Positions 10,054-61,602 of a DNA stretch of 64,000 nt are shown here, piece by piece. Position 1 is the stretch's first letter. Each line of letters begins with the position of its first letter. The translations under genes and the position numbers were made by a program. The DNA comes from an uncultured Cryomorphaceae bacterium. Lineage in GTDB: Bacteria > Bacteroidota > Bacteroidia > Flavobacteriales > Schleiferiaceae. A model generated the notes under the pieces. That model had not been told where the DNA came from. It searched no databases and was given only the letters and a program-made list of their open reading frames with translations. Where the stretch lies: positions 1 through 64,000 of the forward strand of contig CACMMX010000010.1 in NCBI GenBank assembly GCA_902614915.1, in the 5' to 3' direction.

Positions 10054-10899
10054 TTATGGTATGGACTTTAGTCCTCTTTTTTTTACGACAAAAACAATGG
10101 AAAAACCAACGAAACTAATAACAGCCATTGAACCACTAATCGAAGCGTTTAATATATTCGATAACATATAGCCGCCTAATGAACTCAAAAACCCTTGAAC
10201 GATTATAACCATAACCATTCTTTTTAAGTCTTTGGTGATTAAAAATGCTGTAGCTGCTGGAACCACTAAAAAAGCAATAACGAGAATAGCGCCTACGCTT
10301 TCGAAACTTACAACCGTGGCCACACTCGTTGCTGCCATTAAAGAGTAATGCCATAATGCTGTTTGGATACCTATGCTGGCCGCATATTCAGAGTTAAAAC
10401 TAGTAAGGAGCCAACCCTTATATCCTACCCAGAAAACCAATTGAATAAGTGTAAACAACAACAGCAGGGTCCATACAGCGTCCGGTGCGGCTATCCCTAA
10501 ATAAGAAGATTTTTGTAGGGGCACAAAAGCCAGCTCACCGTGTAAAACACAGTCGGCATCAATATCCGCTTGTCCGGCATACTTGGTTACTAAAATAATT
10601 CCTATTGCAAACAGAAAGGTAAATACTGTTCCCATAGCTGCATCACCTTGAATTTTTCCCTTATTTGAAAAAAAGTGAATTAAAAACGTGGTCAATAGCC
10701 CCATAATTATAGCGCCCATTAGCAAAGGAAAAGACGCTCTTGATCCGCTTATTAAATAGGCAATAACAATCCCTGGAAGCACTGCATGGGATAAGGCGTC
10801 TCCCATCATACTCATTTTTCTAAGCAAAAGTAAATTTCCTAACATTCCTGTTGAAGAAGCTACTAGAAAACCTGTTAAAACTATCCAAAAACCGTCCAT
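10054..10899 (-). CDS. Metal ABC transporter permease (MntD/ZnuB-like), cluster 1
   Basis: Inner-membrane permease of the ABC-3 family for Mn, Zn or Fe, 281 residues with about eight to nine hydrophobic helices. The family motif GDALSHAVLPGIVIAYL is near residue 35, and SFESVGAILVIAFLV lies in the C-terminal half. ATG 10899 follows the upstream stop by one base; a TTG at 10908 in the same frame would overlap it. It is the last gene of a leftward cluster with a substrate-binding lipoprotein and a permease-DtxR fusion but no ATPase gene. It is paralogous to the permease at 60733-61602. Confidence 0.88.
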   Translation of the reverse strand: MDGFWIVLTGFLVASSTGMLGNLLLLRKMSMMGDALSHAVLPGIVIAYLISGSRASFPLLMGAIIMGLLTTFLIHFFSNKGKIQGDAAMGTVFTFLFAIGIILVTKYAGQADIDADCVLHGELAFVPLQKSSYLGIAAPDAVWTLLLLFTLIQLVFWVGYKGWLLTSFNSEYAASIGIQTALWHYSLMAATSVATVVSFESVGAILVIAFLVVPAATAFLITKDLKRMVMVIIVQGFLSSLGGYMLSNILNASISGSMAVISFVGFSIVFVVKKRGLKSIP

Positions 10900-10900
10900 A

Positions 10901-12205
10901 TTAAGCAATATCAGGGTCTGGTATGATTTCGTGTATTTCTAAAAGCGGGTTGAATCTAGAACATAAACCCAACTCTCCTAATATTTCTTCTTCTATTTCA
11001 GGTGTTAAAAAATGCTCCATGGTCTCCGCTTCATCATGAACCAAGTGTACACTCATCTGCATTCTACGTTGAAGGTATACTTCCCAAATCTTGTGTCTTC
11101 TATCTATGTCTGCGCCGTAATTTCTTCCCGTCATGCTCAAGGTGTATCCTGTATGTACTTTATAAACAAAACCTTTGTTTTTCAACCTATTTATGGTTCT
11201 GTTCCATAATTTCTGTTCAAAATATTGACGTTTATTTATTTGTGCTCGATCGAAAAGCTTCCCTTTACCTCTGACCTCATTTTGGACAGCTGCCTTAAGT
11301 AGGTTTTCTTCATTAATTCTCCTTCTTAATAGTAGTTTATTCCATCGTTGGTATATGATTCCTTTCTTTGGCGCAAACATCATTGATACAAATGCAAATA
11401 AACTTACGCAGACTATGGTTAAAGGTCCGGTGGGCATGTTGGTTTCGTAATAACTAATAAAAGAACCCAGCCACCCGCCTAATGCGCCAAAACATCCACT
11501 AATAATCAACATAGGGACCAAGCGATCAGTCCAAAATCTAGACGCAGTGGGAGGTATTATTAATAGCGCACTCATCATAATTATTCCTACTGCTTTTATT
11601 CCTACACTAATTGTAAGTATTGTGAGTATGCTAATTAAAACATCAATCTTTCTTCTGCTTATTCCTATACTTTGAGCATAATCTGAATTAAAAATAGTGG
11701 CTTTAATACTCAGATAACTCGATGCAACTAGGAGAAAAACAATTAAACAAACCGCTGCAAAAGCAGTGCTATCTTCAGGTGTCATTGCTGCTGCATTACC
11801 AAAAATATAATGATCTAAACCGCTTTGATTTCCAGAGAAACTTGACTGGATCATAGTAAGTAGAACAATACCTAATCCAAAAAAACTTGATAATACAATT
11901 GCTAAAGCACTGTCGCTCTTTATTTTGCTTTTGTGGGTTATGTAGTCTACTAACCAAATACTCATCCATCCACTTAAGGCAGCACCCAGAATCATAATAA
12001 TTGGGCTTTTGACCCCGCTTAATAAAAAAGCAATTAATACACCTGGAAGCATACTATGAGCAACTGTCTCTCCTATTAAGGTTTTCTTTCGTAGAAAATT
12101 GAAACTTCCTACTATCCCGCTTACTGCCCCAAGAAGGATTATAGCAACTACTACAAACCTAACGTTTGGGTCTTCTAGTATTATATATTTTAGTAGTAAG
12201 TCCAA
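10901..12205 (-). CDS. Metal ABC permease fused to a DtxR/MntR-like domain, cluster 1
   Basis: Residues 1 to about 285 form an ABC-3 metal permease (LIGETVAHSMLPGVLIAFLL; VGIIMMSALLIIPPTASRFW). Residues about 300-434 resemble a winged helix plus the dimerisation/metal-binding domain of DtxR/MntR regulators (RRHKIWEVYLQRRM, EAETMEHFLTPEIEEE). The usual DPHxxPIP end is altered to NPLLEIHEIIP, unlike the sister protein at 58579-59841, so metal sensing may differ. The start is TTG at 12205, directly abutting the lipoprotein stop. The regulatory role of the fused domain is inference. Confidence 0.85.
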   Translation of the reverse strand: MDLLLKYIILEDPNVRFVVVAIILLGAVSGIVGSFNFLRKKTLIGETVAHSMLPGVLIAFLLSGVKSPIIMILGAALSGWMSIWLVDYITHKSKIKSDSALAIVLSSFFGLGIVLLTMIQSSFSGNQSGLDHYIFGNAAAMTPEDSTAFAAVCLIVFLLVASSYLSIKATIFNSDYAQSIGISRRKIDVLISILTILTISVGIKAVGIIMMSALLIIPPTASRFWTDRLVPMLIISGCFGALGGWLGSFISYYETNMPTGPLTIVCVSLFAFVSMMFAPKKGIIYQRWNKLLLRRRINEENLLKAAVQNEVRGKGKLFDRAQINKRQYFEQKLWNRTINRLKNKGFVYKVHTGYTLSMTGRNYGADIDRRHKIWEVYLQRRMQMSVHLVHDEAETMEHFLTPEIEEEILGELGLCSRFNPLLEIHEIIPDPDIA

Positions 12206-13111
12206 TTATCTTAGATAATCCGCTATAGTTCGTGCATTAAATAACAACATATCAGTATATGTGTTTTGGTCTTCTTTATCACCCAATGAATCACTCAATA
12301 ATTCGGGTCCTATTTTTACTTCAAACCCTTTAGTTTTACATCCTTTTTGGACACTTATCATTGCCTGTGGGCTTATAATATTCTCTAAAAATATTGCAGG
12401 AATTTGTTGATCAACAATAAAATCTACAAGGCTAGTGATCTCTTTTAAACCAAATTCACTTACTGTGCTTGAACCCTGCAGGGTTTTCACATTAAAGCCA
12501 AAAGATCGACCAAAATAACTCAATGCATCATGAGTTGTAATAACCGTACGTTGGCCTTCTGGTATTGAAGAAATTATACTTCTAACCTCTATTGCGACAT
12601 CATTAATTTGTGAAAAGTACACTTGTTTATTAGAATATAATTCATCTTCGAATTGAGGATACTGTGTAGAAAGGTTTTGTATAATAGTTGAAATAGCACT
12701 CCTTGTTAAATCTAAATCAAACCAAACATGAGGGTCTGTAGATGTTGGGAAATTAGGATCACTAATAATTAAATCCTGAGGATAATTTTGAGACACATTA
12801 ATGACTAAAGGACCTTCCATCTTCTTCAAAACCTCAATGATTTTACCTTCTAAATGCAAGCCGTGATAAACAACCACATCCGCGGAGCGTAAAATATCTA
12901 AATCTCTTTTTGATGGTTTATACACATGAGGGTCTATTCCTGTTTTAAGTAATGGAATAATTTGCATTTCATTTGAGGCAATGTTTTCAACCCAATCTGA
13001 AATAATACTAGTAGTACAAACTATTTTTATTGTGTTTCTATTCTCCTTTTTTGACTTTGTTAAACATGCAGTAAATGAGAATAACATTAGATAAAGCAGT
13101 ACTTTGCGCAT
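12206..13111 (-). CDS. Metal ABC transporter substrate-binding lipoprotein, cluster 1
   Basis: Cluster A-I solute-binding protein of the TroA/MntA/PsaA type. The signal peptide ends at a lipobox FTAC (Cys 16 from ATG 13111). Expected metal ligands are His 62 (GIDPHVYKP), His 128 (TDPHVWFD), Glu 219 (VSEFG) and Asp 274 (LSDSLG). The H-H-E-D set is the one seen in Mn-binding members. The long His-rich loop of ZnuA proteins is missing, which favours Mn or Fe. The frame extends to an ATG at 13138, but a -7 element at 13136-13143 would overlap that start. Confidence 0.87.
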   Translation of the reverse strand: MRKVLLYLMLFSFTACLTKSKKENRNTIKIVCTTSIISDWVENIASNEMQIIPLLKTGIDPHVYKPSKRDLDILRSADVVVYHGLHLEGKIIEVLKKMEGPLVINVSQNYPQDLIISDPNFPTSTDPHVWFDLDLTRSAISTIIQNLSTQYPQFEDELYSNKQVYFSQINDVAIEVRSIISSIPEGQRTVITTHDALSYFGRSFGFNVKTLQGSSTVSEFGLKEITSLVDFIVDQQIPAIFLENIISPQAMISVQKGCKTKGFEVKIGPELLSDSLGDKEDQNTYTDMLLFNARTIADYLR

Positions 13112-13135
13112 CTTATTTTTATTTATTCTAAATAA

Positions 13136-13143
13136 CAAAAATA
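13136..13143 (-). promoter_or_regulatory. -7 element before metal cluster 1
   Basis: The minus strand reads TATTTTTG, matching TAnnTTTG, about 25 bases before ATG 13111. No convincing -33 element or palindromic operator was found in the 133-base divergent gap shared with the ALDH7 gene. Confidence 0.4.
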
Positions 13144-53919: not shown

Positions 53920-54166
53920 AGCCTTAATTTACACCGTTTAAATTCATTTGGCGTCATTCTCCGTTAATTCTTTAAGCCCACCGCTCTTTAGGATATAAGG
54001 CATATCGATTTTCATATTTTACCAATTAATTTTATGACTTTCTATGCCTTGCATATTGATACCCCTTGCTATAATAACGGGAGCGAGCAATATAAGATTC
54101 TTGAATATCTGCTTGAAGAGCAAACCACCGAGGTTTTAAAAATTTAGTTAAGTGGTCTTTATAGTT

Positions 54167-54179
54167 TAGTTTTGCTAAA
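54167..54179 (+). promoter_or_regulatory. sod promoter element with overlapping dyad
   Basis: TAGTTTTG (54167-54174) fits TAnnTTTG and lies 26 bases before the ATG. It is embedded in the dyad TTTAG-TTTTG-CTAAA (54165-54179), which resembles the one before the MntR-like gene at 56195-56210. The spacing differs by one base, so shared control is only a suggestion. Confidence 0.5.
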
Positions 54180-54199
54180 AATTAAAACCCTTTTTTATT

Positions 54200-56193: not shown

Positions 56194-56211
56194 GTTTAGT
56201 TTTACCTAAAC
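56194..56211 (+). promoter_or_regulatory. Palindromic operator at the mntR-like promoter
   Basis: GTTTAG (56194-56199) and CTAAAC (56206-56211) form a perfect inverted repeat with a six-base centre. It overlaps a near-consensus -7 element (TAGTTTTA, one mismatch) 20-30 bases before the GTG start. DtxR/MntR-family operators are palindromes of this size, so this is a good autoregulation site. Confidence 0.6.
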
Positions 56212-56226
56212 TTATTTGTAGGCAAA

Positions 56227-56886
56227 GTGAATAATCATACAGAAAGCGAGGAGAACTATATTAAAGCGCTGTACTATTTAGGCGGTGAAGCTACCGTTGC
56301 TAGCGGCGCTCTTGCAAACCGAGTGGGTGCCAAGGGTCCTTCGGCAACACAAGCGGTGAGAAGACTCGCTTCAAAAGGTCTTGTTGAAGTTATTCCTTAC
56401 AAGGGAGTTAAGCTCACTTTAGACGGGCTAACCTTGGCTAAACATATTTTACGTAAGCATAGATTATGGGAGACGTTTTTGGTTGAAAAACTTGGCTTTG
56501 GCTGGGAAGAAGTTCATTCTATCGCTGAACAGCTAGAACACATTCAAAGCCGAGAACTGGTAGAAAAGCTGGCAGAGTATCTGGACTCACCTGCTCATGA
56601 TCCTCATGGCGATCCAATTCCTCAAGCAGATGGAAAAATACCACCTGCGGTGGGAAAACCGCTGCAGCAATTTCCTCAGGGCAGCAGCCTGAAAGTCGTT
56701 CGTGTGGAGGACGCAGGAACAGACTTTTTTACACAATTAGATCTTTTAAAAATAAGCTTAGGCAAAGAGTATACTTTAAAATCTGTGTCAAGTTTTGATT
56801 TTAGTATCCAGCTTCAGGCTGAAGAAGGCGAATCCTTCTGGTTAAGCCATAGTATGTCCTCAAACATTTACGCAATATCCCTATGA
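56227..56886 (+). CDS. DtxR/MntR-family metal-dependent repressor
   Basis: A 219-residue regulator. Winged-helix N-terminus (SEENYIKALYYL; ALANRVGAKGPSATQAVRRL), dimerisation/metal domain (HRLWETFLVEKLGF, AEQLEHIQS, SPAHDPHGDPIP), and a C-terminal FeoA/SH3-like domain (about 150-219). The metal ligands of the family are His and Glu in these blocks. It begins with GTG 56227 downstream of a palindrome and overlaps the substrate-binding gene by ATGA. It is likely to repress its own importer operon when Mn (or Fe) is plentiful. Confidence 0.9.
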   Translation: MNNHTESEENYIKALYYLGGEATVASGALANRVGAKGPSATQAVRRLASKGLVEVIPYKGVKLTLDGLTLAKHILRKHRLWETFLVEKLGFGWEEVHSIAEQLEHIQSRELVEKLAEYLDSPAHDPHGDPIPQADGKIPPAVGKPLQQFPQGSSLKVVRVEDAGTDFFTQLDLLKISLGKEYTLKSVSSFDFSIQLQAEEGESFWLSHSMSSNIYAISL

Positions 56887-57773
56887 AAGCCCTAATCAAA
56901 TTTCTTTTACCAATTACTCTTCTTGTTTCTTGTGAAGCGCCTAAGGGAGCGGAAGTTTTAGCAACCACTTCTGTAGTTGCAGATGCTGCTCGACAGTTAC
57001 TGCCTCCCGAAGTTGAAGTGCAGGCGTTAATGCAAAGCAACATTGACCCTCATTCATACAAACCTGTAGAAAAAGACGTACATGCCATTACTAGTGCACA
57101 AATTGTATTGCACAATGGCCTTCATCTTGAGGGTAAAATGACAGAAATATTAGAAAAAGTTTCCTTGACAAAACCTGTTTATGAAATGAGCGAATCGCTT
57201 ACGAGTTTAGAGTTAATAACTGTTGGCCCAAATGTTTTTGATCCACACATTTGGTTTGATCTTAAACTTTGGGAACGTTGTGTGAGTGAATTAGCCCTGT
57301 TTTTAATTGAACAATACCCTGAGTACAGCGTGATTATTGAAAGCAGAAGTGAAGCATATAGTGCTAAATTGTTAAACGCGCATAATACGTTCTATAATAA
57401 AAGCAACGAGATACCTGACTCGTTAAGGGCCATAGTTACCGCACATGATGCCTTCTCATATTTTGGAAGAGCTTATGGTGTAAAGGTTAAGGGGCTACAA
57501 GGCGTTAGTACTGCAGCTGAATTTGGTGTGAAGGACATGAGCAATACAGCGGACTTTATAGTTAAGACAGGCTTAAATACCGTATTCACAGAAACCTCAG
57601 TAAATTCAAAAAGTATTGAAGCATTACAGGAGGCTGTAGAACAGAAGGGGGGAAAGGTTAGACTTGGCAAGCCCCTCTATTCAGACGCCCTTGGGGAACA
57701 AGGAACGAAAGAAGCGACTTTAATCGGTGCATTTAAATACAATACAACACAAATATTAAACTCTTGGAAATAA
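56883..57773 (+). CDS. Metal ABC transporter substrate-binding lipoprotein, cluster 2
   Basis: TroA/MntA-like solute-binding lipoprotein, 296 residues, lipobox LVSC (Cys 17). The ligand set is His 57 (IDPHSYKP), His 122 (FDPHIWFD), Glu 213 (AAEFG) and Asp 268 (YSDALG), as in Mn-binding members; there is no His-rich zinc loop. It overlaps the regulator gene upstream and shares one base with the ATPase start downstream (TAATG). It is paralogous to the protein at 12206-13111. Confidence 0.9.
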   Translation: MKALIKFLLPITLLVSCEAPKGAEVLATTSVVADAARQLLPPEVEVQALMQSNIDPHSYKPVEKDVHAITSAQIVLHNGLHLEGKMTEILEKVSLTKPVYEMSESLTSLELITVGPNVFDPHIWFDLKLWERCVSELALFLIEQYPEYSVIIESRSEAYSAKLLNAHNTFYNKSNEIPDSLRAIVTAHDAFSYFGRAYGVKVKGLQGVSTAAEFGVKDMSNTADFIVKTGLNTVFTETSVNSKSIEALQEAVEQKGGKVRLGKPLYSDALGEQGTKEATLIGAFKYNTTQILNSWK

Positions 57774-58576
57774 TGGAAAAGAGCATTGAAGTACATAACC
57801 TTACGGTAAGCTATCATAGTAAACCGGTGCTGTGGGACGTGGACTTTTCATTACCTATGGGAAAAATAATAGGAATCGTTGGCCCAAATGGGTCGGGTAA
57901 AACTACTATGCTTAAAACTATAATGGGTCTAATGAAGCCCGATAGCGGCTACACGGAAATCTTTGGGCAGCCATTGGATAAAGTGCGTTCCCGAGTAAGT
58001 TATGTTCCTCAACGAGAAAGTGTAGATTGGGATTTTCCTGCAGACGTCATGGATGTGGTGTTAATGGGTCGGTACAGAAAGAATAATCTCTTTAGAAGAA
58101 TTTCTAAAGACGACAAGAGAATTGCCACAGAGGCTTTAGAGAAAGTAAATCTTTTGGAGTTTGCGCATAGACAGATTTCTCAGCTTTCTGGAGGACAACA
58201 GCAGCGTGTTTTTATTGCAAGGTCATTGGCGCAGCAGGCAGACATCTATTTAATGGATGAACCTTTTGTGGGTGTTGATGCAGCGACTGAGGACGCGATT
58301 TTACAATTATTGCAAGAGATGAAAAATCAGGGTAAGACGGTTGTTATTGTCCACCACGACTTGCAGACGGCTAACGAATATTTTGATCACATCGTATTGT
58401 TGAATACAAGGCTTGTAGCCGCTGGTCCTAAGAATGAGGTGTTCACAAAGGACTTGCTACAAGAAGCGTATGGCGGGCGTTTAACGGTTCTATCCAAGTT
58501 AGGAGATTTGATAAGCACGGAAGAGTTTCCTCTACGTGAGCCAGAATTTAAGGAAAATAAACCTGATAAAGAATAA
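57773..58576 (+). CDS. Metal ABC transporter ATP-binding protein
   Basis: ATPase of the Mn/Zn importer, 267 residues from ATG 57773. Walker A GPNGSGKTT (37-45), Q-loop YVPQRESVDWDFP (SVDWDFP is typical of Mn/Zn/Fe importer ATPases), signature LSGGQQQR, Walker B IYLMDEP and the switch His in VIVHHDL. The frame also opens at TTG 57764, but the ATG overlapping the upstream stop is more likely. It is the only ATPase of this family in the window. Confidence 0.93.
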   Translation: MEKSIEVHNLTVSYHSKPVLWDVDFSLPMGKIIGIVGPNGSGKTTMLKTIMGLMKPDSGYTEIFGQPLDKVRSRVSYVPQRESVDWDFPADVMDVVLMGRYRKNNLFRRISKDDKRIATEALEKVNLLEFAHRQISQLSGGQQQRVFIARSLAQQADIYLMDEPFVGVDAATEDAILQLLQEMKNQGKTVVIVHHDLQTANEYFDHIVLLNTRLVAAGPKNEVFTKDLLQEAYGGRLTVLSKLGDLISTEEFPLREPEFKENKPDKE

Positions 58577-58578
58577 GA

Positions 58579-59841
58579 ATGGACCCTGTTTTCCTAAAGG
58601 TTTTAGTCGGTACAACCCTTTTAGCAGCTTCTTCTTCTGTGGTTGGTGCTTTCAGTTATCTCAAAGGACAGAGTCTTATTGGAGACGCTATTGCTCATGC
58701 GTTGTTGCCGGGAGTTGTCCTTGCATTTATTCTTGGCGGAATTAGAAATTCTAGTTTGCTGATTTTCGGAGCCCTCATTAGCGGTTTGTTGGCACATTAT
58801 GGAATAGGATATATAGAAAACAAGACAAAACTCAAGAACGATACCGCGGTGAGTTTAGTGCTTTCAACTTTTTTTGGGTTTGGAATTATGTTGATGTCCT
58901 ATATTCAGCGAACAGGAATAGGTCAACAAGCCGGGCTAGAGCGTTTTCTTTTGGGTAAAGCAGCGGCTATAACTATGCAGGACATTTATATTTTTACAGT
59001 ACTTGCCCTTCTATTAATTATTGGCGTTGGTCTATTTTATAAGGGTTTTCAGCTCATGACGTTTAATGAAGATTTTGCTCAAGCTATAGGGCTGCCTATG
59101 CCGCTTATTCGCTGTGCGTTTACGGTTCTTACGGTTTTGGCAATTACAATTGGCATACAAACCGTTGGTGTTGTTTTGATGGCAGCATTACTTATTACGC
59201 CCTCCGCTACCGCAAGGGTTTGGACAAATAGTCTGCCTTCGATGTTAGTTCTAACCGCGTCATTTGCCGGTGTCGCAGCTGTACTAGGAACTTACATATC
59301 TAGCGCACTTTCAAAGATGCCTACGGGACCGTGGGTGGTCCTGGTTATGGCTTTTTTTGGTTTCTCATCGTTATTGTTTGCGCCTAAAAGAGGGTGGTTT
59401 TCTAAACAAAAACAGGCTAATGCGAACCAACGAAAAACGATTCGAGAAAACGTCCTTAAACTTCTCTTTCAGCAGGAAGAGCATAGGGGGCTTCCTATTG
59501 TGCTTTCTGTTGATGAAATACAGCGCAAAAGGGTAATCCGCTTAGACAGATTAACATCGGCACTCAAGGAGCTGAAAAAGCGCTTGTTAATTATTGACTA
59601 TGGCGGCTGCTATGGCTTAACTGAGCTTGGTCGTAGTGAAGGTAGGAGGGTTGTTCGTCTTCATAGATTGTGGGAATTGTATCTTACAGAACGTCTTGGG
59701 ATGGCCGCTGATCACATTCACCCACAAGCTGAAACGATGGAGCACGTGATTACTCCAGAAATAGAAGAATTACTAGTTAAAGAATTGGGGAATCCCGAAG
59801 TGGATCCGCACAAAAGTCCAATACCTTATGAAGAAGATTAG
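58579..59841 (+). CDS. Metal ABC permease fused to a DtxR/MntR-like domain, cluster 2
   Basis: A 420-residue fusion. Residues 1-275 are an ABC-3 permease (LIGDAIAHALLPGVVLAF; GVVLMAALLITPSATARVW). Residues 285-420 form a DtxR-like winged helix plus dimerisation domain (LSVDEIQRKRVIRLDRL; HRLWELYLTERLG; QAETMEHVITPEIEE) ending DPHKSPIP, the intact metal-site text. It starts two bases after the ATPase stop and overlaps the barrel gene by 14 bases. The cytoplasmic domain may sense metal and gate transport or bind DNA; both are inference. Confidence 0.9.
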   Translation: MDPVFLKVLVGTTLLAASSSVVGAFSYLKGQSLIGDAIAHALLPGVVLAFILGGIRNSSLLIFGALISGLLAHYGIGYIENKTKLKNDTAVSLVLSTFFGFGIMLMSYIQRTGIGQQAGLERFLLGKAAAITMQDIYIFTVLALLLIIGVGLFYKGFQLMTFNEDFAQAIGLPMPLIRCAFTVLTVLAITIGIQTVGVVLMAALLITPSATARVWTNSLPSMLVLTASFAGVAAVLGTYISSALSKMPTGPWVVLVMAFFGFSSLLFAPKRGWFSKQKQANANQRKTIRENVLKLLFQQEEHRGLPIVLSVDEIQRKRVIRLDRLTSALKELKKRLLIIDYGGCYGLTELGRSEGRRVVRLHRLWELYLTERLGMAADHIHPQAETMEHVITPEIEELLVKELGNPEVDPHKSPIPYEED

Positions 59842-60736
59842 CATTTTGATTTTAACAGTCTCATCTTTTTGGGGCATGGCTCAGGAGCGTCCTGAGACAG
59901 ATGATAATGTAGGCCAAATAAGTCCGAATACCCCAATGATTAAAACATTTCCCATTGCGACGGACCGTCCAGATATGACAGAGAGTGCTTTTATAACACC
60001 TGTAGGCTGGTTACAGTATGAAGGCGGGTATCAGTATTCACATAGCGAGAGCCTCTTGCCTGGAGGTGAAGTTATAGATATTCATCAGGTTGAGCAGGTG
60101 TTGCGGTTTGGTATTAATAGACGATTTGAATTTCGTAGTGTGGTTAATTCGAATACTCAACAATTTGATAATCCATCTACTTTGAATGATCCTTATCGCA
60201 GAACAGGTGTTAGTCCATTGACTATTGGTTTTAAGTATAATTTGTTGGAAGAAAGCCATAAAATGCCACAGACAACCTGGTTGAGTCATACCACACTTCC
60301 TTGGCTTTCCTTAGGTGATTACCGTCAGGTTTATCCAAACAATACAGTGTTTCACGAACAGCGATTGATGCTAGAAAAAGGGATTACCTCTAAGGTCGCC
60401 CTTGCCTCTAACATTGGTTTTTCTGGCGCTTTAAATGGAACCGCTGGCTATATTAACGAGGGGATGTTTTCTTTCGCAGTAGGCTATGATTTCGGTAATG
60501 ATTGGGGAGTATATATAGAATATTTTACCAACTGGGAATTGGTACAGACGCAGCTTTTTCATACCCCTTTTGTTGACGGGGGAATCACTAAACTATTGTC
60601 TAGTGATTTGCAATGGGATGTTTATGCAGGTTATGATATATCAGAAACTGTTGACGCCCGCAATCCAACGACCGGCTTTATTGCAGGCGCTGGAATTAGC
60701 TACCGACTTCCGTTAGCCCATCGTTTAAGCCGGTGA
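59828..60736 (+). CDS. Outer-membrane beta-barrel protein inside the metal-importer operon
   Basis: A 302-residue exported protein (signal peptide ending GMAQ) with barrel-type alternating strands and a terminal GAGISYRLPL. The opening TDRPDMTESAFITPVGWLQYEGG matches MetA-pathway/transporter-type barrels in Bacteroidota. It overlaps the permease-DtxR gene by 14 bases and the next permease gene by four (GTGA), so it is co-translated with the importer. I infer an outer-membrane entry port for the metal, comparable in idea to MnoP. No metal site is identified. Confidence 0.85.
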   Translation: MKKISILILTVSSFWGMAQERPETDDNVGQISPNTPMIKTFPIATDRPDMTESAFITPVGWLQYEGGYQYSHSESLLPGGEVIDIHQVEQVLRFGINRRFEFRSVVNSNTQQFDNPSTLNDPYRRTGVSPLTIGFKYNLLEESHKMPQTTWLSHTTLPWLSLGDYRQVYPNNTVFHEQRLMLEKGITSKVALASNIGFSGALNGTAGYINEGMFSFAVGYDFGNDWGVYIEYFTNWELVQTQLFHTPFVDGGITKLLSSDLQWDVYAGYDISETVDARNPTTGFIAGAGISYRLPLAHRLSR

Positions 60737-61602
60737 ATCCTACGTTATCCATAGCATTGGTTGCTTCTTTTATAGGTGTCTCATGCGCATTGCTTGGGGT
60801 GTTTTTAGTGCTGCGAAAGATGACGATGGTTGGAGACGCTATTTCTCACGCTGTATTACCTGGAATCGCAATTGCCTATTGGTTAAGTCAAAGCAGGGCA
60901 AGCCTTGTCATGTTTGTCGGAGCGGCCATCGTGGGTGTTGGCGCCACGGTAATAATAGAGCTATTGAGAAAAAAGCTTCGCGTACAGAGTGACGCAAGTA
61001 TAGGCATGACATTTACTTCCCTTTTTGCCTTAGGAGTGGTTCTAATAACCTTTTGGAGCGACAGTGTGGACCTAGACCAAGAGTGTGTTCTTTATGGAGA
61101 AATAGCATATGTACCTTTCAATCTTTGGATAATAAACGGGACTTCCTATGGGCCCATTGCTCTTTGGTCTTCAAGTGTTTTGTTTTTGGTAGTCCTAGTA
61201 TATTTAATCATTGGGTACAAAGGGTTAAAAATGACTAGTTTTAATGAAGATTATGCCATGGTGTTAGGTATTTCAGCGGGTCTTTGGAACTTGAGCTTAA
61301 TGTCCATGGTTAGCTTGGCTACGGTGGTTAGCTTTGAAAGTGTTGGAGCTATTCTTGTGGTGGCTTTACTTGTAGCTCCTGCGGCAAGTGCATATTTGCT
61401 GGTCCAAAAATTGAAACCATTGCTAATTTTAAGCGCTGTTTATGGTTTATTGGGCGCCTTAGGCGGGTATGGACTTAGCAAGCTCATAGAAACAAGCATA
61501 GCAGGCTCAATTACAACAGTATTGGGGATTCTATTTTTATTTTCGTTGGTAATTCAAATAACCATAAAAACTAAAAAAACAGTTCATGCACTGGAAAGTT
61601 AA
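60733..61602 (+). CDS. Metal ABC transporter permease (MntD/ZnuB-like), cluster 2
   Basis: ABC-3 family permease, 289 residues, eight or nine helices, with GDAISHAVLPGIAIAYWL and SFESVGAILVVALLVAP. It is the paralogue of the cluster 1 permease. The start is GTG 60733, overlapping the barrel gene by GTGA. It completes a regulator-lipoprotein-ATPase-permease/DtxR-barrel-permease operon and overlaps the ElaA-like gene by 17 bases. Confidence 0.9.
   Translation: MNPTLSIALVASFIGVSCALLGVFLVLRKMTMVGDAISHAVLPGIAIAYWLSQSRASLVMFVGAAIVGVGATVIIELLRKKLRVQSDASIGMTFTSLFALGVVLITFWSDSVDLDQECVLYGEIAYVPFNLWIINGTSYGPIALWSSSVLFLVVLVYLIIGYKGLKMTSFNEDYAMVLGISAGLWNLSLMSMVSLATVVSFESVGAILVVALLVAPAASAYLLVQKLKPLLILSAVYGLLGALGGYGLSKLIETSIAGSITTVLGILFLFSLVIQITIKTKKTVHALES

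Follow-up and report, generated by a model that had tools for sequence, protein, structure and literature searches.

In the genome of an uncultured Cryomorphaceae bacterium, the permease of an ABC-type metal importer is fused at its C-terminus to a two-domain unit of the DtxR/MntR family. We propose that this unit acts as a cytosolic metal sensor, which would be rigidly coupled to the permease and gate metal uptake by trans-inhibition, and we give this reading a probability of roughly one half. It is based on the strict constraint on the metal ligands of the fused unit, the drift of its DNA-reading face, the fixed length of a join, predicted to be helical, between the two parts, and the presence of a separate MntR with its own operator. 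The same four features agree with a preliminary description of this DNA, in which the domain was regarded as probably not just a repressor and possibly as a sensor of cytoplasmic metal that gates transport. Throughout this text, the window is the whole stretch of 64,000 nucleotides that was analysed.

The fusion and its operon

The fusion is encoded by a single open reading frame with the following features:

58579-59841, + strand: permease-sensor fusion, single ORF, 420 aa
58585-59379, + strand: ABC-3 metal permease domain, residues 3-267 (PF00950, E 6.4e-62)
59386-59448, + strand: join from permease P269 to the helix-1 ligand N291, residues 270-290
59440-59619, + strand: winged-helix domain, residues 288-347, placed by fold; sequence drifted
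59542-59580, + strand: recognition helix of the fusion, residues 322-334
59620-59826, + strand: DtxR metal-binding/dimerisation domain, residues 348-416 (PF02742, Fe_dep_repr_C, E 1e-23)
Metal-ligand positions of the fusion: N291 (helix 1), H362, E366, H381, E385, E388, H389, D409 and H411

The central observation of the preliminary description, i.e. that a permease and a DtxR/MntR-like domain share one reading frame, is real, as both parts are matched by their Pfam families; the Fe_dep_repr_C match at residues 348-416 scores 83 bits against a cut-off of 27. The permease part is matched by PF00950 over the full domain, its relatives in the PDB are the manganese permease 7kyp/7kyo and ZnuB, and a binding protein, an ATPase and a second permease are encoded in the same operon. 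The tail behind the permease is 148 residues long, rather than the about 135 first counted. It contains the DtxR/MntR unit (residues 288-417) in the domain order of this fold, a winged helix followed by the metal-binding and dimerisation domain, and the DPHKSPIP motif noted earlier is indeed present at residues 409-416. The fusion lacks the third, SH3-like domain that larger DtxR proteins have.

The operon consists of six genes, of which the fusion is the fourth:

56195-56210, + strand: inverted-repeat operator TTTAGTTTTACCTAAA, upstream of mntR; conserved
56227-56886, + strand: stand-alone MntR/DtxR regulator, 219 aa, with the three domains PF01325, PF02742 and FeoA; HTH conserved
56883-57773, + strand: metal substrate-binding protein of the ZnuA/TroA type (PF01297)
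57764-58576, + strand: metal ABC ATPase (PF00005); start codon uncertain by a few residues
58579-59841, + strand: the fusion
59828-60736, + strand: outer-membrane-type protein (PF13557), between the two permease genes
60733-61602, + strand: second permease of the importer, plain and sensor-free (PF00950); own clade in the tree

About 20 loci from genomes of the Schleiferiaceae/Cryomorphaceae type share this gene order, and they contain the fusion at full length. Matches to the fusion were found in 50 of the 75 genomes of the family, and nearly all of these are full-length fusions. A chance joining or misassembly of two genes can therefore be ruled out. The nearest NCBIfam models of the ATPase are manganese/iron ATPases, and no extra regulatory domain was detected by Pfam in its 270 residues. 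The PF13557 gene overlaps the fusion stop by 14 bases and is kept in most relatives; its product may provide an outer-membrane route for the metal.

As already described, the first gene of the operon encodes a separate MntR-like protein (56227-56886). Just before it lies an inverted repeat, TTTAG-N6-CTAAA with the consensus TTTAGNTTTNCCTAAA, which is present in all 19 aligned sequences (the window included), and the sole exact copy of this consensus in the 1.65-Mb genome assembly is that of the window itself. From its type and place, MntR presumably binds this repeat. The 19 sequences showed no further conserved inverted repeat ahead of the operon. Control of operon transcription appears to be provided already by an MntR with an intact HTH and one operator. 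An operator-like sequence, TTTAGTTTTGCTAAAA, is located at 54165-54180, just before a gene for an Fe/Mn superoxide dismutase (54200). We rejected it as a second MntR-type operator, as it carries two mismatches, is unconserved in most relatives and belongs to a number of matches in the window that is near chance; its resemblance to the operator is probably accidental.

Metal site, join and DNA-reading surface

Ligand positions in the fusion were assigned by alignment to SloR, and the aligned positions are established metal ligands in SloR, ScaR, MntR and DtxR. Six of them (H362, E366, H381, E388, H389 and H411) are invariant in 49 of 49 fusions and the others vary conservatively: E385 is Glu or Asp in the 49 fusions, D409 is Asp in 47 of them, and position 291 in helix 1 is always Asn, Asp or His. 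This is the ligand set of a DtxR/MntR metalloregulator. It should be noted that, for this count, the 49 fusions were set against 39 rows of stand-alone proteins, one of which is the fusion fragment L025. E385 occupies a position that is Glu in MntR and Cys in DtxR, and the residue would favour Mn2+ or Fe2+ as the sensed metal. In DtxR proteins, the helix-1 ligand couples the metal to domain movement.

The AlphaFold2 model of the full-length fusion is weak (pLDDT 67), with residues 281-370 being good. In this model, a single helix is predicted to span residues 273-303, that is the join and helix 1, and to be followed by the HTH and a beta wing. When the sensor alone (residues 273-420) was modelled with close fusions and stand-alone MntRs, the pLDDT reached 92, and in comparisons with Foldseek and VIA-align the model fell among DtxR, IdeR and Mn-dependent repressors, with Z values reaching 18.9 over 134 residues. 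The winged helix of the preliminary description thus stands as a fold, given the pLDDT of 92 and a Z of about 18, but not as a Pfam match, since PF01325 was not detected in this part of the fusion. Likeness of fold to the DtxR repressors does not by itself show DNA binding.

The join is fixed in length. The permease ends in an A/S-P motif, with glycine in place of proline in one case, and the count from this proline to the helix-1 ligand is exactly 22 positions in 48 of 49 fusions, the one exception having 21. The sequence of the join is variable, a proline occurs inside it in only 1 of 49 fusions, and its 22 positions hold across two permease clades; the helix 1 to helix 3 segment, on the other hand, varies by up to 10 residues. 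A fixed length combined with a variable sequence would fit mechanical coupling through a helix better than a loose linker made for cleavage, and the permease's own C-terminal helix may account for part of the constraint on length.

The DNA-reading surface behaves differently from the metal site. PF01325 is detected by Pfam in the adjoining MntR. In 20 loci with both a fusion and a stand-alone MntR, which allowed a comparison within the same genomes, the mean identity of the fusions was 93.7% for the metal/dimer block, 80.7% for the permease and 49.3% for the HTH, as opposed to 83.4% for the metal block and 75.2% for the HTH of the stand-alone MntRs. The same picture was obtained across the Bacteroidota with 26 fusions and 38 stand-alone regulators: the entropy of the recognition helix was 2.40 bits in the fusions versus 1.23 in the stand-alone regulators, whereas that of the metal block was equal (1.21 versus 1.24). 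The motif of the stand-alone proteins, i.e. S324, V325, S/T326, M328, K/R331, Y342 and G344 in fusion numbering, is lost in the fusions, the S-V-T-x-M pattern of the DNA-reading helix included, and the only winged-helix positions retained are those of the core, such as L332 and L347. The recognition helix is on average more basic in fusions (+2.7) than in stand-alone regulators (+1.0). Judged by conservation, the DNA-reading function appears to have drifted in the fusions. The winged helix is among the most divergent in the fusions of L074, L076 and L077, which belong to one family and have an HTH far from the consensus; in two sampled genomes of this family the fusion is the sole PF02742 protein.

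These observations bear on the possibility that cells cleave the fusion and that the DtxR unit, once freed, acts beside MntR as a second metalloregulator and represses genes of metal uptake. The fusion has the architecture and size of Chlamydia YtgCR, whose C-terminal 139 residues are an iron-dependent repressor, and both the fold and the ligand positions are intact and the recognition helix is basic. This explanation is the main rival of the gating proposal, but we consider it unlikely. The DNA-reading positions are unconserved even among close relatives, PF01325 goes undetected in the fusion, and the same operon contains an MntR with a conserved operator while showing no second conserved repeat upstream. 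In addition, a join of fixed length that is poor in proline would argue against a loose linker, and the HTH of L074, L076 and L077 has moved far from the consensus, even though the fusion is the only PF02742 protein seen in two of them.

Distribution and relatives of the fusion

Fusions are not confined to the locus described above. Within the genus, all 18 genomes (the window's own included) contain at least one fusion and most contain two, and strong matches were obtained in 70 of 395 Bacteroidota genomes. The relatives include:

10901-12205, - strand: second, paralogous permease-sensor fusion of the window, 434 aa, 37% identical to the first
L078-L086 and L093-L106: winged-helix-only tails, in many Bacteroidota

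In the second fusion of the window, which the preliminary description of the first does not mention, the ligand positions are kept, five residues are inserted and the C-terminal DPHxSPIP is lost. It belongs to a second metal ABC cluster (10054-13138, - strand) that comprises a plain permease as well as a binding protein and the fusion but has no adjacent ATPase gene.

The Bacteroidota matches fall into three groups, which we call F, Fb and H. Group F consists of first permeases with a full sensor. Group Fb comprises six loci, whose permeases form a separate clade (support 99/94) and whose sensors also stand apart from those of F (support for F 100/99). Three Fb proteins are about 495 residues long (L087:3762-5252, L090:4139-5626 and L092:4307-5791), and the tail of L092, the only one of the three that was scanned, contains a winged helix, a metal domain and a FeoA domain. 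Apparently, the long Fb tails are full three-domain MntRs fused to a permease of another clade. One permease was found per Fb locus, and the Fb importers are probably homodimers with two sensors.

The permeases of group H have no metal block; their tail, usually present on both permeases, is a winged helix of about 90 residues. By hhalign, tails from H first permeases share homology with the winged helix of F (98%, E 5e-14), as do, less strongly, tails from second permeases (95%), and no Pfam family scored above its cut-off on the tails of the four H proteins scanned. An unrooted tree is compatible both with a loss of the metal block in H and with its gain in F. A search of plasmids beyond the Bacteroidota returned a metal permease of a gammaproteobacterium whose tail is a winged helix only, encoded on a plasmid of Halomonas sp. 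PA16-9 (L107:3477-4583), as well as haloarchaeal loci in which permease and regulator are separate adjacent genes; no full permease-DtxR fusion from outside the Bacteroidota was present among the plasmid matches listed.

The winged-helix-only tails, which many Bacteroidota importers have on both of their permeases, show that a tail can be retained without a metal block. This would suit a passive role, in which the domain takes over or buffers the metal that comes out of the channel, or does no more than stabilise the assembly of permease and ATPase, with no regulation being involved. Such a role seems improbable for the fusions with a full sensor, as the complete ligand set of a regulator, including the ligand in helix 1, is under strong constraint in them.

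The sensor tree, from which the fusion fragment L025 was left out as it was from the entropy comparison, places fused and stand-alone sensors in separate supported clades, so that a recent duplication of the adjoining mntR can be ruled out as the origin of the fused sensor. This is also relevant to the idea that the dimerisation domain lets the fused unit pair with the stand-alone MntR and keep it at the importer, thereby linking transcription to the state or number of transporters. Both genes belong to one conserved operon, both proteins have kept the dimerisation domain, and the single sensor per importer has no obvious fused partner. On the other hand, the two clades are old, the two sensors are only 39% identical over 93 residues, and two genomes that bear a fusion show no stand-alone DtxR protein, all of which makes such pairing doubtful. 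Lastly, the earlier suggestion that the domain tethers DNA to the importer, by binding operon DNA while in the membrane, is disfavoured and appears very improbable: the winged-helix fold is kept and the recognition helix is basic, but the DNA-contact positions of the stand-alone regulators are not conserved in the fusion, and MntR is the simplest candidate for binding the operator.

Proposed gating of the importer and comparison with known systems

In the reading that we prefer, the fusion would be the first permease of a manganese/iron-type ABC importer, and its DtxR/MntR unit would be a former DNA repressor that now serves as the transporter's own sensor. At high cytosolic metal, an ion would bridge helix 1 (N291) and H362, E366, H381, E385, E388, H389 and H411, and this bridging would alter the pose or the dimer state of the sensor unit. 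As helix 1 would be continuous with the last membrane helix via the fixed-length join, the change could be passed on to the permease and the ATPases and slow import, i.e. cause trans-inhibition, negative feedback being the simplest form. The binding of metal, its identity (Mn2+ or Fe2+), the direction of the effect, the stoichiometry and the action on transport are what we infer in this scheme. Because the full-length model has a pLDDT of only 67, it does not place the sensor relative to the ATPases.

Gating agrees with the Fb loci, where one permease would put two sensors on one importer. Against it speaks the fact that Chlamydia YtgCR, the only studied permease-DtxR fusion that we found, functions as a repressor after cleavage. 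In addition, the permeases of the window's importer presumably form a hetero-pair with a single sensor, and an intramolecular sensor dimer like that of MetNI is therefore unavailable to it. Moreover, the basic recognition helix may make some contact with DNA or lipid, and the winged-helix-only tails of many relatives may point to a non-sensing structural role of the tail. With these reservations, we tentatively extend the proposal to the phylum, at somewhat less than even odds: in the Bacteroidota, a DtxR/MntR unit may have been fused to metal permeases at least twice, have lost DNA reading and kept its metal switch, and now gate uptake. The operon would thus possess a transcriptional sensor (MntR) and a post-translational one of the same family, with a large further group keeping the winged helix only, on both permeases.

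Transition-metal ABC importers are mostly regarded as transcriptionally controlled. If the proposal is true, a DtxR unit that is rigidly attached to the permease and kept for its metal and not for DNA would represent a direct post-translational brake on manganese/iron uptake, and would show a route from a repressor fold to a transporter valve.

Compared with importers of the MntBC-A and ZnuBC type, the families of permease, ATPase and binding protein are alike. We know of no sensor tail on the permeases of these systems, and solved permease chains of this type have 260-290 residues. The fused unit resembles the repressors MntR, DtxR, IdeR and SloR in its fold (Z up to 18.9) and metal-ligand positions, but differs from them in being tethered to a permease, in the absence of the third SH3/FeoA domain and in the loss of the recognition-helix motif. 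MetNI and ModBC are trans-inhibited via C-terminal substrate-binding domains (reviewed in PMC10710835). What they share with our proposal is the concept of a cytosolic domain at the C-terminus to which the transported substrate binds, and inhibition in the fusion would be by analogy with them. Their regulatory domain has another fold and is fused to the ATPase subunit, whereas the fused domain of the Bacteroidota is located on the permease and derived from a repressor.

The closest known system, not named in the preliminary description, is YtgCR of Chlamydia trachomatis (CT069/CTL0325), the permease-DtxR fusion of the ytgABCD operon, whose metal ligands are reported to be conserved (PMC5599777). 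YtgR is cleaved off and binds DNA as a repressor (PMC5599777, PMC7755916), and it is described as the sole known iron regulator of Chlamydia (PMC6504234, PMC7755916). YtgCR is the only experimentally studied permease-DtxR fusion that we found in our literature search. The fusion architecture as such is thus already known from Chlamydia, and no description of a Bacteroidota permease-DtxR fusion was found in the literature searched, neither of the form with a drifted DNA face beside an MntR, nor of the second and the winged-helix-only relatives. Like YtgCR, the Bacteroidota protein joins a metal ABC permease to a two-domain DtxR unit of about 140 residues at its C-terminus, and its gene lies in a metal ABC operon. 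Unlike YtgCR, which was compared by its description, it has a drifted DNA-reading surface and is not the only DtxR regulator of its operon, which is headed by the MntR at 56227-56886. Beside YtgCR, so far treated as a chlamydial peculiarity, there now stands a broader set of permease-DtxR fusions from free-living bacteria, and these can be assayed in laboratory hosts.
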